Both the position numbers and the translations under genes were made by a program. Source: a methanogenic archaeon mixed culture ISO4-G1 (GTDB lineage Archaea; Thermoplasmatota; Thermoplasmata; Methanomassiliicoccales; Methanomethylophilaceae). From it: a stretch of DNA of 64,000 nucleotides. The notes under the pieces were generated by a model. The model had not been told where the DNA came from. It worked only from the letters and a program-made list of their open reading frames with translations, and searched no databases. Position 1 is the first letter of the stretch; each line of letters starts with the position of its first letter. Below are positions 34,262-62,533 of the stretch, one piece after another. The stretch is taken from contig CP013703.1 in NCBI GenBank assembly GCA_001563305.1, positions 744,001 through 808,000 on the forward strand, written 5' to 3'.

Positions 34262-34388
34262 TGTACCATCATAGCGCCACCAATAATAAATGCGGATGCC
34301 TAACAGGATTCAAGACAAAGTGTCAGGTAATGATTTAATTGAGAAAAATAAATCTGATTAAGCTATTAACTAAAATAAATACGATACA

Positions 34389-34781
34389 ATGAAGCAGAAG
34401 CCGATACCAAGGGAAGAACTGTCCGAGATGTTCCGGTTAGGTGCCATCCGCAAGATGGAGGAGCATGAGATTTTCGCCATCCGTCAGGCGGAACAGCCCG
34501 AACGCTCCGCCCTTTTCGCCGAGCTTCTGACGTATACCGACATAGAATGGCGTTACTACGATCTCGCGCTGCATTACTATGCCGATGACATGGAGTATTT
34601 CGAGAACGGCCTTAATGAGGATCTCCTTCTTCTGACTAAGACCAGCGAACTCCCTCCCAAACTCTATGCGGAATATCTGAGGGAGATCAGCCCTTCGGCC
34701 CGTGCTTCCGAGAAGATAACCCATTCGCATCTCGTCGCTCTGAAGAAGAGCATCACAAAGGTCAGGGATGAGCTCAGATGA
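34389..34781 (+). CDS. Hypothetical protein, 130 aa, first gene of the amber-codon unit
   Basis: I do not recognise this helical soluble protein. It is rich in aromatic and acidic residues (DIEWRYYDLALHYYADDMEY, then KLYAEYLREISPSARASEK). It has no membrane helix or catalytic motif. Its TGA overlaps the ATG of the next ORF (ATGA at 34778-34781), so the two are translationally coupled and their products probably act together. An AT-rich promoter (AAAATAAATAC near 34371) precedes it. Confidence 0.65.
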   Translation: MKQKPIPREELSEMFRLGAIRKMEEHEIFAIRQAEQPERSALFAELLTYTDIEWRYYDLALHYYADDMEYFENGLNEDLLLLTKTSELPPKLYAEYLREISPSARASEKITHSHLVALKKSITKVRDELR

Positions 34782-35539
34782 TCTATTCCAATCCCGAATG
34801 TAATCAGATCAAGCGTGTCATACGCCGCAAGGAGATGGAGAAGGTCGTATACTCATCGATGGAGCAGCTCCCTATCGCGGTGAGGACATCCATGGAAGCG
34901 CAGCTGGACCTCGATATCAGGAGATGCCATGCCATGTAGAGACTCTCCCAGAATGATTTCTCATTCATCTTGGACGATGCGGAAATGCTCTCCCCTCAGG
35001 CGTCCATAGTTCCGATGGATCTCTACGAGCACTACCTGTCTAGTCTCGAGGAGGCCGAGATGAAGGATGAGAGCGCCTACATCTTCTTCATCAGCGCCGG
35101 CATAAGGTTCTACATTCACATGACCAATGCGAAGGTCATCTTCAAGGAGATGTCCGAAGGGGACAATCCAGTGTCCTATTCGGATTTCATACAGTTGCAG
35201 ACGCTGAGGGAAACATTCGAAGAGTGCAAGCAGAGATGCGAAATGATGAGGGACGAGACGGACCTTCCTTACAGGTCCGCGGAGAAGTACATCGATCTTG
35301 CTTTGGAGACTATCAGCGTCATGACGAGGGTACATCTCAGGAAACAGATCATCAGCGAGGAATTGGCGTATCTCATCGACAGGATCGAATCCACATCATG
35401 TGATGATTTCAACAAACTGTTCCTCCCGGATTTCGATCCTCATCACCGTGAGCGCATCGTCCTGTTCGAGAACAGTTTCAAGACACGTATAGACATCTTT
35501 TTGGCAATGCTCTTGGTCTATGTTGACATGGGTCTCTGA
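34778..35539 (+). CDS. Hypothetical protein with in-frame amber codon (candidate pyrrolysine)
   Basis: From the ATG at 34778 the frame runs 253 codons to the TGA at 35539, interrupted only by a TAG at 34937-34939 (codon 54). Before it the protein reads MIYSNPECNQIKRVIRRKEM; after it, RLSQNDFSFILDDAEMLSP continues in frame for 200 codons. No other gene in the window is confidently ended by TAG, so read-through as pyrrolysine is credible. The alternatives are a nonsense mutation or restart at Met 34970. The product is helical (ISAGIRFYIHMTNAKVIF, VHLRKQIISEELAYLIDR) and of unknown function, coupled to the preceding 130-aa gene. Confidence 0.6.
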
Positions 35540-36220
35540 GTATTGTTATTAATTAATGTAGTAACTTTATTAGAATTATTAATTGCGGTTTATATTTGCA
35601 TTATGGATTTTAACTTAATTAATTAAGTTAATTGCTTTATTAAGTATATTTTTAATGCTAAATGATATAGTGCAATTGATGTGTGATAAAAATTAATGTG
35701 ATAACTTAATTAGCATAATTATTGAAGCTAAAACTAAAGTGCAACATGAAACTTGAATTAGAGCGAATTTAATTAAGTAGATAACTTAACTACATTAATT
35801 TTTATTAATAAATGATATGAGCAAAGAAAAATTGATAAAATGAACATTTTTGCACAATATTTTGAAAAATATAAAAAAACAGAGCAAAATTATCAAAATC
35901 AATCAAAAATTGAATGAAATTGGATCACCGTCTGTCAACGACGGTCTCCCGAATATCAACTTAATTTAGGCATTTTTGATACGAAACCCCACTACCTTTT
36001 GATGAAGATGTCGAGATCAAAGGATTTCCTGCATTATACGATCATTTTTGGCAAAAAATGCAGCGCACATAGAGATTTCCGGAGGATCCTTCTTCATAAT
36101 TCCTCATTTCTCGATGCGAAACTGCTCTTGATCCTTGCACAATTCTTTGTTCTAATGTATGAGCATTAATTAATTAGTTGATAACGTATTATACTAATAA
36201 AATAAATGTATCACATTAAC
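35540..36220. other. 680-bp AT-rich convergent gap with palindromes and recurring AACTTAATTA
   Basis: No ORF is convincing. A 22-bp perfect palindrome lies at 35610-35631 (core AACTTAATTAATTAAGTT). AACTTAATTA or one-to-three-mismatch forms recur near 35563, 35704, 35782 and 36183, several preceded by GAT. TTAAGT-AGATA-ACTTAA (about 35772-35788) is a further dyad. A GC-richer hairpin, ACCGTC-TGTCAAC-GACGGT, lies at about 35927-35945. Both flanking genes end here, so the gap is not needed for their promoters. Confidence 0.55.
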
Positions 36221-60558: not shown

Positions 60559-61386
60559 TCAGTGCCCGTCGCAATAGGCCAGGATGTTGATCACTGCTTT
60601 GTTCCCGGGGGAGATCTCGTTGATCGCTCCTGCCGTGATCTTCGCCTTCTGATACTCGCCCTTCATGGCCAGGCATATCCCCAGGGTCTCCATGGCGCCG
60701 ATATGGGAATTGTCCGCCTTGATCGCCTGGGCCGCATAGTTCCCGGCGGCGTTGGTCTTCCCAAGGATTCTGAAGATGTAAGCGGCGACTGCCAGAGAAT
60801 CCGCGGACTTGTCCTTCAGGCCTTCCCTGGCGTATTTCAGAAGCTCCTTGTCATGTCCCGCCATCATCATGGAATTGGCATAGGCCACGCGCACGTCGTA
60901 GTCCTTCGGATATTCAGAGAGCAGTTCCGCGGAGGTCTGAACTGACATCGTGTGCTCCCCGAGGGCACTCTGGAACCTGGAAAGGAGTATCCTGTCGTTG
61001 ACGCACTTGTTCTCGATCTTCCCGTATAGGTCGAATGCAGACTCGTACTCCTCCAGGTCGTAAAGGCAGGAGCACTTCAGACGGGTGTTCCTGTCCGATT
61101 TCTTGATTTTGTCCAGCACCTCGATCGCAAAAAGAGGGCAGTCCAGGTTCTGGAGGGCGGAGGCGATGGTGAATCCGTTATCGTCGTCGGCCAGCTCCCT
61201 AAGCCTCATCGCTATCCTGTTCTCCGCATCGCTGGACGGGAGGAGCTTTAGCAGCGACATGCATTTGAGGATCTCCATAGGGTCGTCCTCGGACTCGCAT
61301 ATGGACAGTATCCTCTGGGGAAGCCCTTCGGTGCGCCCCTCCGAGATGTCATCCGAGATCGACTTAAGGATTGAATCCTCGACCAT
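60559..61386 (-). CDS. TPR-like repeat protein, 275 aa
   Basis: The all-helical protein has degenerate tetratricopeptide units (TRLKCSCLYDLEEYESAFDL, DVRVAYANSMMMAGHDKELL, SLAVAAYIFRILGKTNAAGN, GAMETLGICLAMKGEYQKAK). No signal or membrane segment is visible; it is probably a scaffold. It converges directly on trkH (no gap) and is divergent from the AAA/DUF4435 pair. It differs from the TPR protein at 16828. Function unknown. Confidence 0.75.
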   Translation of the reverse strand: MVEDSILKSISDDISEGRTEGLPQRILSICESEDDPMEILKCMSLLKLLPSSDAENRIAMRLRELADDDNGFTIASALQNLDCPLFAIEVLDKIKKSDRNTRLKCSCLYDLEEYESAFDLYGKIENKCVNDRILLSRFQSALGEHTMSVQTSAELLSEYPKDYDVRVAYANSMMMAGHDKELLKYAREGLKDKSADSLAVAAYIFRILGKTNAAGNYAAQAIKADNSHIGAMETLGICLAMKGEYQKAKITAGAINEISPGNKAVINILAYCDGH

Positions 61387-61492
61387 AGTACGTGGAAAGA
61401 GTAGGTAGATTATATGTGTGTGGTTTAGGACGGACGGGCCAGAAACCAGACATTTAATGCATTTTTTATACGCTTTTCACCATTTGGAATTC

Positions 61493-62533
61493 ATGAAGAT
61501 CCGGTCCATATCAGTGCAGGGGTTGTTCAACGAGTTCGACTACGAGATCTCGCTCTTCCCGGAGCTGACTTTCATTCATTCTCCGAACGGATACGGGAAA
61601 TCGACGCTCATGCATCTGGTGTACAGTGTCTTCAAGGGTGACATAGAGTTCATGAAGGAGACCCCGTTCAAGCGTCTGGACATATCCTTCGTGGATGATA
61701 GCGTTCTGATAATCGAGAACATCGGGAATAAGTTCCTCATGCAGATGCAGAAGAACAACGTCAAGTCGCCTGTGACCTTCGAGGAGATCGAGAAGATCTG
61801 TGACGTCACATTCGTTCCCCCGGACCGTCTCACCATCAGGAAGAAGGACGGGCATCTGGTCAACTCCCTGGAATACATCGCACAGGAACTGTATGAGACC
61901 ATCCGCCGCACCAAGGACGACAAGGAGCTCCAGCCCCCGGTGGAGAAGGAGCGTCTGGACAGATCGGACAGCGAACTCGAGTTCTGGTGCAAGGACCTGA
62001 AGGCCAAGCTGGACTTCATGGCCGATTCCGGATTCGAGATAACCATGCCCTCGGGGCTCAGGTTCCCTCCTGCAAGGTACGATCTCATCGAGAACAGGGA
62101 GAGGTACGAGAAGCTGGCATATTCCGTATCAGACTACATAGACAGGAACTATCAGCTCGCCGAATCCATAATCGTCTTCAAGGATATCGTCAACAACATC
62201 TTCATCAACAAGACCATCGAGGTCAATGAGTCCGGTAAGCTCATGATCATGATGAACAACGGTACGACGCTGCCCTTGAGCAAGCTGTCATCGGGAGAGA
62301 CCCAGATCCTCCTCATTTTCTACATGATACTGTTCCATTCGTCCAACGACGGCATAGTCATCGTCGATGAGCCCGAGAACTCCCTCCACGTCTCTTGGCA
62401 GCAGACCCTGGGGGATTACTTCAGGGACATCTGCAGGGTGAGGAAGGTCCAGATGCTGGTTGCCACCCATTCGCCCCAGGTCATACACGACAAATGGGAT
62501 TTCGCAGAGGAAATGGTGCTGAAGAATGCGTGA
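61493..62533 (+). CDS. AAA/ABC-type ATPase, candidate AriA-like subunit of a PARIS-like defence unit
   Basis: The 346-aa SMC/RecF-type ATPase has Walker A FIHSPNGYGKSTLM (residues 27-40), ABC signature LSSGETQILLIFYMILF, Walker B DGIVIVDEPENSLH and a terminal switch His in MLVATHSPQVIHD. It resembles AAA_15/AAA_21 ATPases of OLD and PARIS systems. The start at 61493 (MKIRSISVQGLF) is chosen over the open frame from 61418 because a TATA box (TTTTTTATAC, about 61462) lies 25-30 bp before it. It overlaps the DUF4435 gene by 8 bp. AriA or an OLD-like sensor is inference from this pairing. Confidence 0.8.
   Translation: MKIRSISVQGLFNEFDYEISLFPELTFIHSPNGYGKSTLMHLVYSVFKGDIEFMKETPFKRLDISFVDDSVLIIENIGNKFLMQMQKNNVKSPVTFEEIEKICDVTFVPPDRLTIRKKDGHLVNSLEYIAQELYETIRRTKDDKELQPPVEKERLDRSDSELEFWCKDLKAKLDFMADSGFEITMPSGLRFPPARYDLIENRERYEKLAYSVSDYIDRNYQLAESIIVFKDIVNNIFINKTIEVNESGKLMIMMNNGTTLPLSKLSSGETQILLIFYMILFHSSNDGIVIVDEPENSLHVSWQQTLGDYFRDICRVRKVQMLVATHSPQVIHDKWDFAEEMVLKNA

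Follow-up and report, generated by a model that had tools for sequence, protein, structure and literature searches.

In most organisms UAG is a translation stop. The question raised by the locus described here is whether an in-frame TAG in a small gene of the methanogenic archaeon ISO4-G1 is read as a sense codon and, if so, whether the residue, pyrrolysine (Pyl), is favoured at that position or tolerated there. The stretch of DNA that was analysed, hereafter the window, is 64,000 nucleotides long and represents positions 744,001-808,000 of the single-contig ISO4-G1 genome, 1,593,503 bp. GC content of the sampled ISO4-G1 sequence was 55.4%; the published value for the chromosome is 55.5%, and the organism originates from sheep rumen (PMC4824259). 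The locus consists of two genes, referred to as gene 1 and gene 2, with the following features in window coordinates.

34389..34781, + strand: gene 1 of the pair, a 130-aa helical protein by prediction, no TAG (orthologue alignment, AlphaFold2).
34778..35539, + strand: gene 2, a 253-aa protein predicted to be all-helical, with UAG as sense codon 54 (ORF, orthologues, AlphaFold2).
34937..34939, + strand: in-frame TAG, codon 54 of gene 2, predicted pyrrolysine (TAG in the same column in genomes G008 and G012).
35006..35008, + strand: codon 77 of gene 2, ATA (Ile) in the window (five of eight core orthologues have TAG here).

An earlier note on this DNA had described gene 2 as open for 253 codons except for the TAG at codon 54, with a start overlapping the stop of gene 1 as ATGA and with normal codon use past the TAG. 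Sequence and coordinates agreed with this description, the overlap was located at 34778-34781, and the codon-use score was 0.42 before the TAG and 0.43 after it (0.38 for gene 1). The gene ends in a TGA stop. The internal Met that the note had placed at 34970 is an error, as the codon there is TTG and not ATG. A reader inclined to see the UAG as a genuine stop, followed by a separate gene or a pseudogene of 199 codons, could point to this internal TTG and to the role of UAG in most organisms; the evidence bearing on that reading comes from the genome as a whole and from the orthologues.

The dependence of the claim on pyl genes had been recognized from the start, and these genes were found. 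The genes for tRNA-Pyl(CUA), pylS, pylB, pylC and pylD are contiguous at approximately 657.6-661.5 kb, and mtmB, with its own in-frame TAG, lies just upstream of the cluster. The PylS profile matched at E 1.2e-78 and PylD was above the cut-off, while pylB and pylC are the ORFs between pylS and pylD, assigned by gene order and ORF length and not by family search. The gene set expected where a Pyl protein is made (pylT, pylS, pylB, pylC, pylD) is complete. UAG use was surveyed in the window and fifteen sampled stretches, comprising approximately 363 kb and 304 scored ORFs. Sixteen of these ORFs ended in TAG, and nine of the sixteen clearly run on as coding sequence to the next stop. At most seven likely real TAG stops were left among the 304 ORFs, i.e., UAG is rare as a terminator, as would be expected of a genome encoding Pyl proteins. 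The ORFs continuing past the TAG include methyltransferases, an amidohydrolase, a Na/Pi cotransporter with a PhoU domain, a family-8 glycosyltransferase, a peptidase, and a NifH/nitrogenase-like protein. The glycosyltransferase (L066 13982-15073, - strand) has in-frame TAGs at two codons, 155 and 262, and scores well as coding sequence over its whole length. An AAA ATPase ORF (AAA_15/AAA_21) at 61085-62533 of the window has a TAG at codon 108; its coding score before the TAG is low, so the true start may be past the TAG.

Homologues of gene 2 were found in 21 of 60 genomes, its own included, all belonging to one genus. Six homologue loci also matched named records, all of them from Methanomassiliicoccales or Thermoplasmata MAGs. 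Eight core orthologues, including the one in the window, clustered together with strong support (100/100). Identity of the other seven to gene 2 of the window was 37-46%, and their alignment covered 253 columns with no internal gaps. There were two TAG columns in this alignment. Three of the eight core species have TAG54 (G000, which is the window genome, G008, and G012) and five have TAG77 (G008, G012, G024, G018, and G030), while no TAG was found in the matched stretch of more distant homologues. The earlier note had asked if relatives carry TAG or a conserved Lys or other residue at codon 54. The TAG is indeed shared, but Lys does not take its place elsewhere: the five core orthologues without TAG54 have Leu, Met or Glu, and further out Ile, Val, Ser and Ala occur. 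At codon 77, core orthologues without TAG have Ile, Thr or Ser. Internal starts in all homologues, which would have spoken for a shorter gene, were not seen, as TAG-free homologues begin at the full-length position. Since TAG occupies one alignment column in separately assembled genomes, chance and sequencing error are ruled out. With pyl genes, full-length homologue starts and a TAG common to independent genomes, gene 2 stands as a candidate pyrrolysine protein.

Four-fold site identity between diverged core pairs was 0.21-0.43, versus 0.23-0.30 for random composition. These values are close to each other, and silent positions are therefore near saturation; nonetheless, two columns retain UAG among species that are mostly 42-57% identical. 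In the closest pair, G018 and G030, both with TAG77, dS was 0.86 and dN 0.028 before the TAG, and dS was 1.18 and dN 0.079 after it, giving dN/dS of approximately 0.03 and 0.07, respectively. Thus, homology and coding constraint extend over both sides of the in-frame UAG, as expected of a Pyl protein. Recurrence of TAG despite near-saturation, together with strong purifying selection on both sides, indicates that the UAG is translated. The same selection weighs against a real stop, as do the two different TAG positions among orthologues, the full length of the TAG-free orthologues, and the presence of pyl genes, and we regard termination at codon 54 with a separate gene or pseudogene behind it as extremely improbable. 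Decoding of UAG 54 as pyrrolysine is, on this comparative evidence, very probable. The tRNA-Pyl(CUA), charged by PylS, would decode the codon in normal elongation, and gene 2 would yield a single all-helical protein of 253 aa in which residue 54 is pyrrolysine. From the same evidence we infer that pyrrolysine is the residue inserted, that it is inserted efficiently, and that these positions favour it rather than just tolerating it.

A PYLIS-type RNA element was considered for the 100 nt from the UAG of five genes and rejected, as no stable structure was predicted (z-scores -0.45 to 1.01). A scan of the region with Rfam gave one sub-threshold match, inside gene 2 on the opposite strand. The structure prediction also bears on a reading in which the UAG, placed early in the gene at codon 54 or 77, acts as a switch sensitive to Pyl: some ribosomes would stop at codon 54 and release a 53-aa product, and the amount of full-length protein would follow the supply of methylamine or Pyl. 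The low frequency of TAG stops points to full readthrough but falls short of proving it, which leaves some room for such a switch. However, orthologues without a TAG produce the whole protein and have nothing equivalent to this stop, and no stable RNA structure follows the UAG, which makes regulation of this kind quite improbable.

A more serious alternative competes with the "favoured" part of our reading only and not with decoding. According to it, the UAG is read as Pyl, but the codons arose and persisted by drift, UAG being a sense codon in this genome, and the residue has no role. Both positions accept other residues, and G011 and G022 have neither TAG54 nor TAG77 yet both have PylS, from which it follows that Pyl is not essential to the fold of the gene 2 protein. 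Codons behaving in this manner are present in the same genome. TAG131 of the amidohydrolase (deaminase-like; L055 13079-14368, + strand) was found in none of 29 other species with a match and, being private to ISO4-G1 among 30 species, looks like neutral Pyl; TAG541 of the NifH/NifD-like protein appears private as well, as expected of neutral Pyl. The Na/Pi cotransporter-PhoU protein (L062 3784-5562, - strand), on the contrary, keeps TAG432 (NNEOELN) in nine species, the rest having Lys or Glu. These species belong to the same part of the genus as the gene 2 species, and the position is a candidate for a second conserved site of Pyl outside the methyltransferases. Stable Pyl sites of this type thus exist beside private ones, and the TAGs of gene 2 group with the conserved sites and not with the private.

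Drift must also account for TAG being found repeatedly at the same two columns although silent divergence is near saturation. In a crude star model, the probability of neutral retention was P = 0.03-0.04 for column 54, and for column 77 it was P = 0.03-0.04 with three lineages and 0.006 with four. Neutral retention of both columns is therefore unlikely but not negligible. Recurrent gain of TAG at the same column is a possible alternative to retention, and it would likewise favour selection. Codons 54 and 77 both look selectively kept, to judge from the alignment, though Pyl can give way to Leu, Met, Glu, Thr, Ser or Ile. A neutral Pyl without a role keeps a considerable share of our credence, short of being the probable explanation, whilst the data lean to Pyl being favoured at both sites.

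The AlphaFold2 model of gene 2 is all-helical with pLDDT 89.8. Codon 54 falls within helix 33-57, where residue 54 probably lies on the hydrophobic face, spaced with L43, I47 and C50; the residues found there in other species are mainly Leu, Met, Ile or Val. Codon 77 is in a loop just before the conserved helix 80-88, which has a Tyr-x-x-Tyr pattern. The model of gene 1 has helices at 8-35, 37-64, 90-99 and 102-129, with pLDDT 82 for the best model and 57-63 for the other four. Helix order in gene 1 is similar to that in the N-terminal half of gene 2, but the hhalign probability for homology of the two was only 1.3%. Neither protein had a fold match in PDB or a match in Pfam or NCBIfam. Identity of gene 2 as a methylamine methyltransferase (MtmB, MtbB, MttB) was rejected on the lack of a Pfam/NCBIfam match and on the helical fold. 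Viral origin was rejected too, as relatives were absent from viral contigs, and so was a 21-mer of the conserved noncoding site described below. With no known domain and no PDB fold match, the functional proposal for the pair is based on its location.

In the core species gene 1 immediately precedes gene 2, and the two are conserved as a unit. Orthologues of gene 1 are 62-68% identical in six core species, and homologues were found in 19 of the 31 genomes of the genus. A third gene, of 439-480 aa and with a related-looking helical sequence, comes after the pair in two distant species (L227 5503-6945 and L232 5322-6641). Three further features surround the pair.

34330..34393, no strand: AT-rich palindromic site before gene 1, overlapping the gene 1 start (PWM scan, score 36.6).
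35534..35817, no strand: four AT-rich palindromes starting at 35534, 35604, 35674 and 35754, with spacing 70, 70 and 80 (repeats, motif).
35929..35966, + strand: conserved noncoding site, core GTCAACGACGGTCTCCCGAATATCAACT, approximately 31 nt with flanks (GTCAACGACGGTCTCCCGAATATCAACTTAA) (27-mer search, conserved extent).

The intergenic stretch 3' of gene 2 is approximately 680 bp long, with GC 0.18-0.25 over the first 400 bp. An AT-rich downstream region with palindromic sites was present in all eight core orthologue loci; as the motif was built from the core regions themselves, finding it in the other core species is in part a consequence of how it was derived. The sampled sequence of ISO4-G1 contained no palindromic sites beyond these five, and the AT-rich stretch was missing at the three distant homologues examined. 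The palindromes are possible binding sites with autoregulation.

The conserved site is sharply bounded and is situated within this intergenic stretch, 0.4 kb downstream of gene 2. The 27-mer searched (window 35935-35961, genome 779,935-779,961) occurred exactly once in each of 34 of the 60 Methanomassiliicoccales genomes, while the reversed control gave 0. Pair and site were found together in every same-contig case examined, the site following the pair, or gene 1 alone, at a distance of 0.4-10 kb and in the same orientation. Measured from orc1, the site lies at 48.9% (G000), 49.7% (G030), 47.7% (G013), 43% (G047), and 31% (G033) of the circle, and GC skew in G000 switches sign at approximately 800 kb. 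In the first three of these genomes, all single-contig, this is close to opposite orc1, and less so in the other two. The site is put forward as a candidate chromosome-terminus or resolution site. It resembles archaeal Xer/dif (PMC2958812) in being single-copy and noncoding, in its AT-rich surroundings and possibly in a position near the replication terminus, and it matches E. coli dif at 14 of 28 positions. It differs in lacking 11-bp inverted arms around a 6-bp spacer beyond chance (arm match 6/11, no better than shuffles), and for this reason it was not filed as dif.

A role in the terminus region is the most economical reading of the surroundings of the pair. The translationally coupled 130-aa and 253-aa proteins would form a helical complex whose targets are the AT-rich palindromes and the conserved site of the presumed terminus region, with a role in, e.g., terminus organisation, dimer resolution or segregation. 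We offer such a complex as a tentative proposal, somewhat unlikely as it stands. That Pyl is selectively kept there as a structural or interaction residue, non-catalytic, in a DNA-organising complex of the terminus on the palindrome array and the 31-nt site, is doubtful, with a clearly smaller chance than the complex itself. If true, part of chromosome biology in these archaea would depend on pyrrolysine.

Pyl codons outside methyltransferases have so far mostly been regarded as accidents, and standard annotation splits UAG-containing genes of this type in two. Kivenson and colleagues reportedly described a genome-wide archaeal "Pyl code" in 2025. The conserved positions of gene 2 and the Na/Pi-PhoU protein offer a way to ask if Pyl is favoured in any non-catalytic role. 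Such proteins are not as little described as the earlier note had it: 25 Pyl genes, nine of them methyltransferases, were published for ISO4-G1 (PMC4824259), 16 non-methyltransferase Pyl genes for Ca. M. alvus (PMC4153887, Table 7), and 46 genes interrupted by an in-frame amber codon for ISO4-H5, a count that takes in the methyltransferases (PMC5011839). The 25 genes counted for ISO4-G1 may already include gene 2, while the M. alvus table has no entry recognisable as this family, judged by annotation.

Comparison with known systems places gene 2 as follows. MtmB, MtbB and MttB share with it a positionally conserved UAG decoded by the same tRNA-Pyl; in these enzymes Pyl is catalytic, whereas gene 2 encodes a small helical protein with no known catalytic motif, in which Pyl is replaceable. 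The tRNA-His guanylyltransferase of Methanosarcina with Pyl (Heinemann et al., 2009, reference 79 in PMC4153887), as cited there, is a non-methyltransferase with an in-frame UAG as well; the title of that paper speaks of neutral evolution, whereas the positions in gene 2 recur across species. The published non-methyltransferase Pyl proteins (PMC4153887, PMC4824259, PMC5011839) resemble gene 2 in that they come from gut or rumen archaea that decode Pyl, contain a UAG in frame, and have UAG-free homologues. Non-methyltransferase Pyl is thus already on record for this order and this genome, and the novelty of gene 2 is in its unusually conserved positions: it differs from these proteins in keeping UAG at two columns across species.
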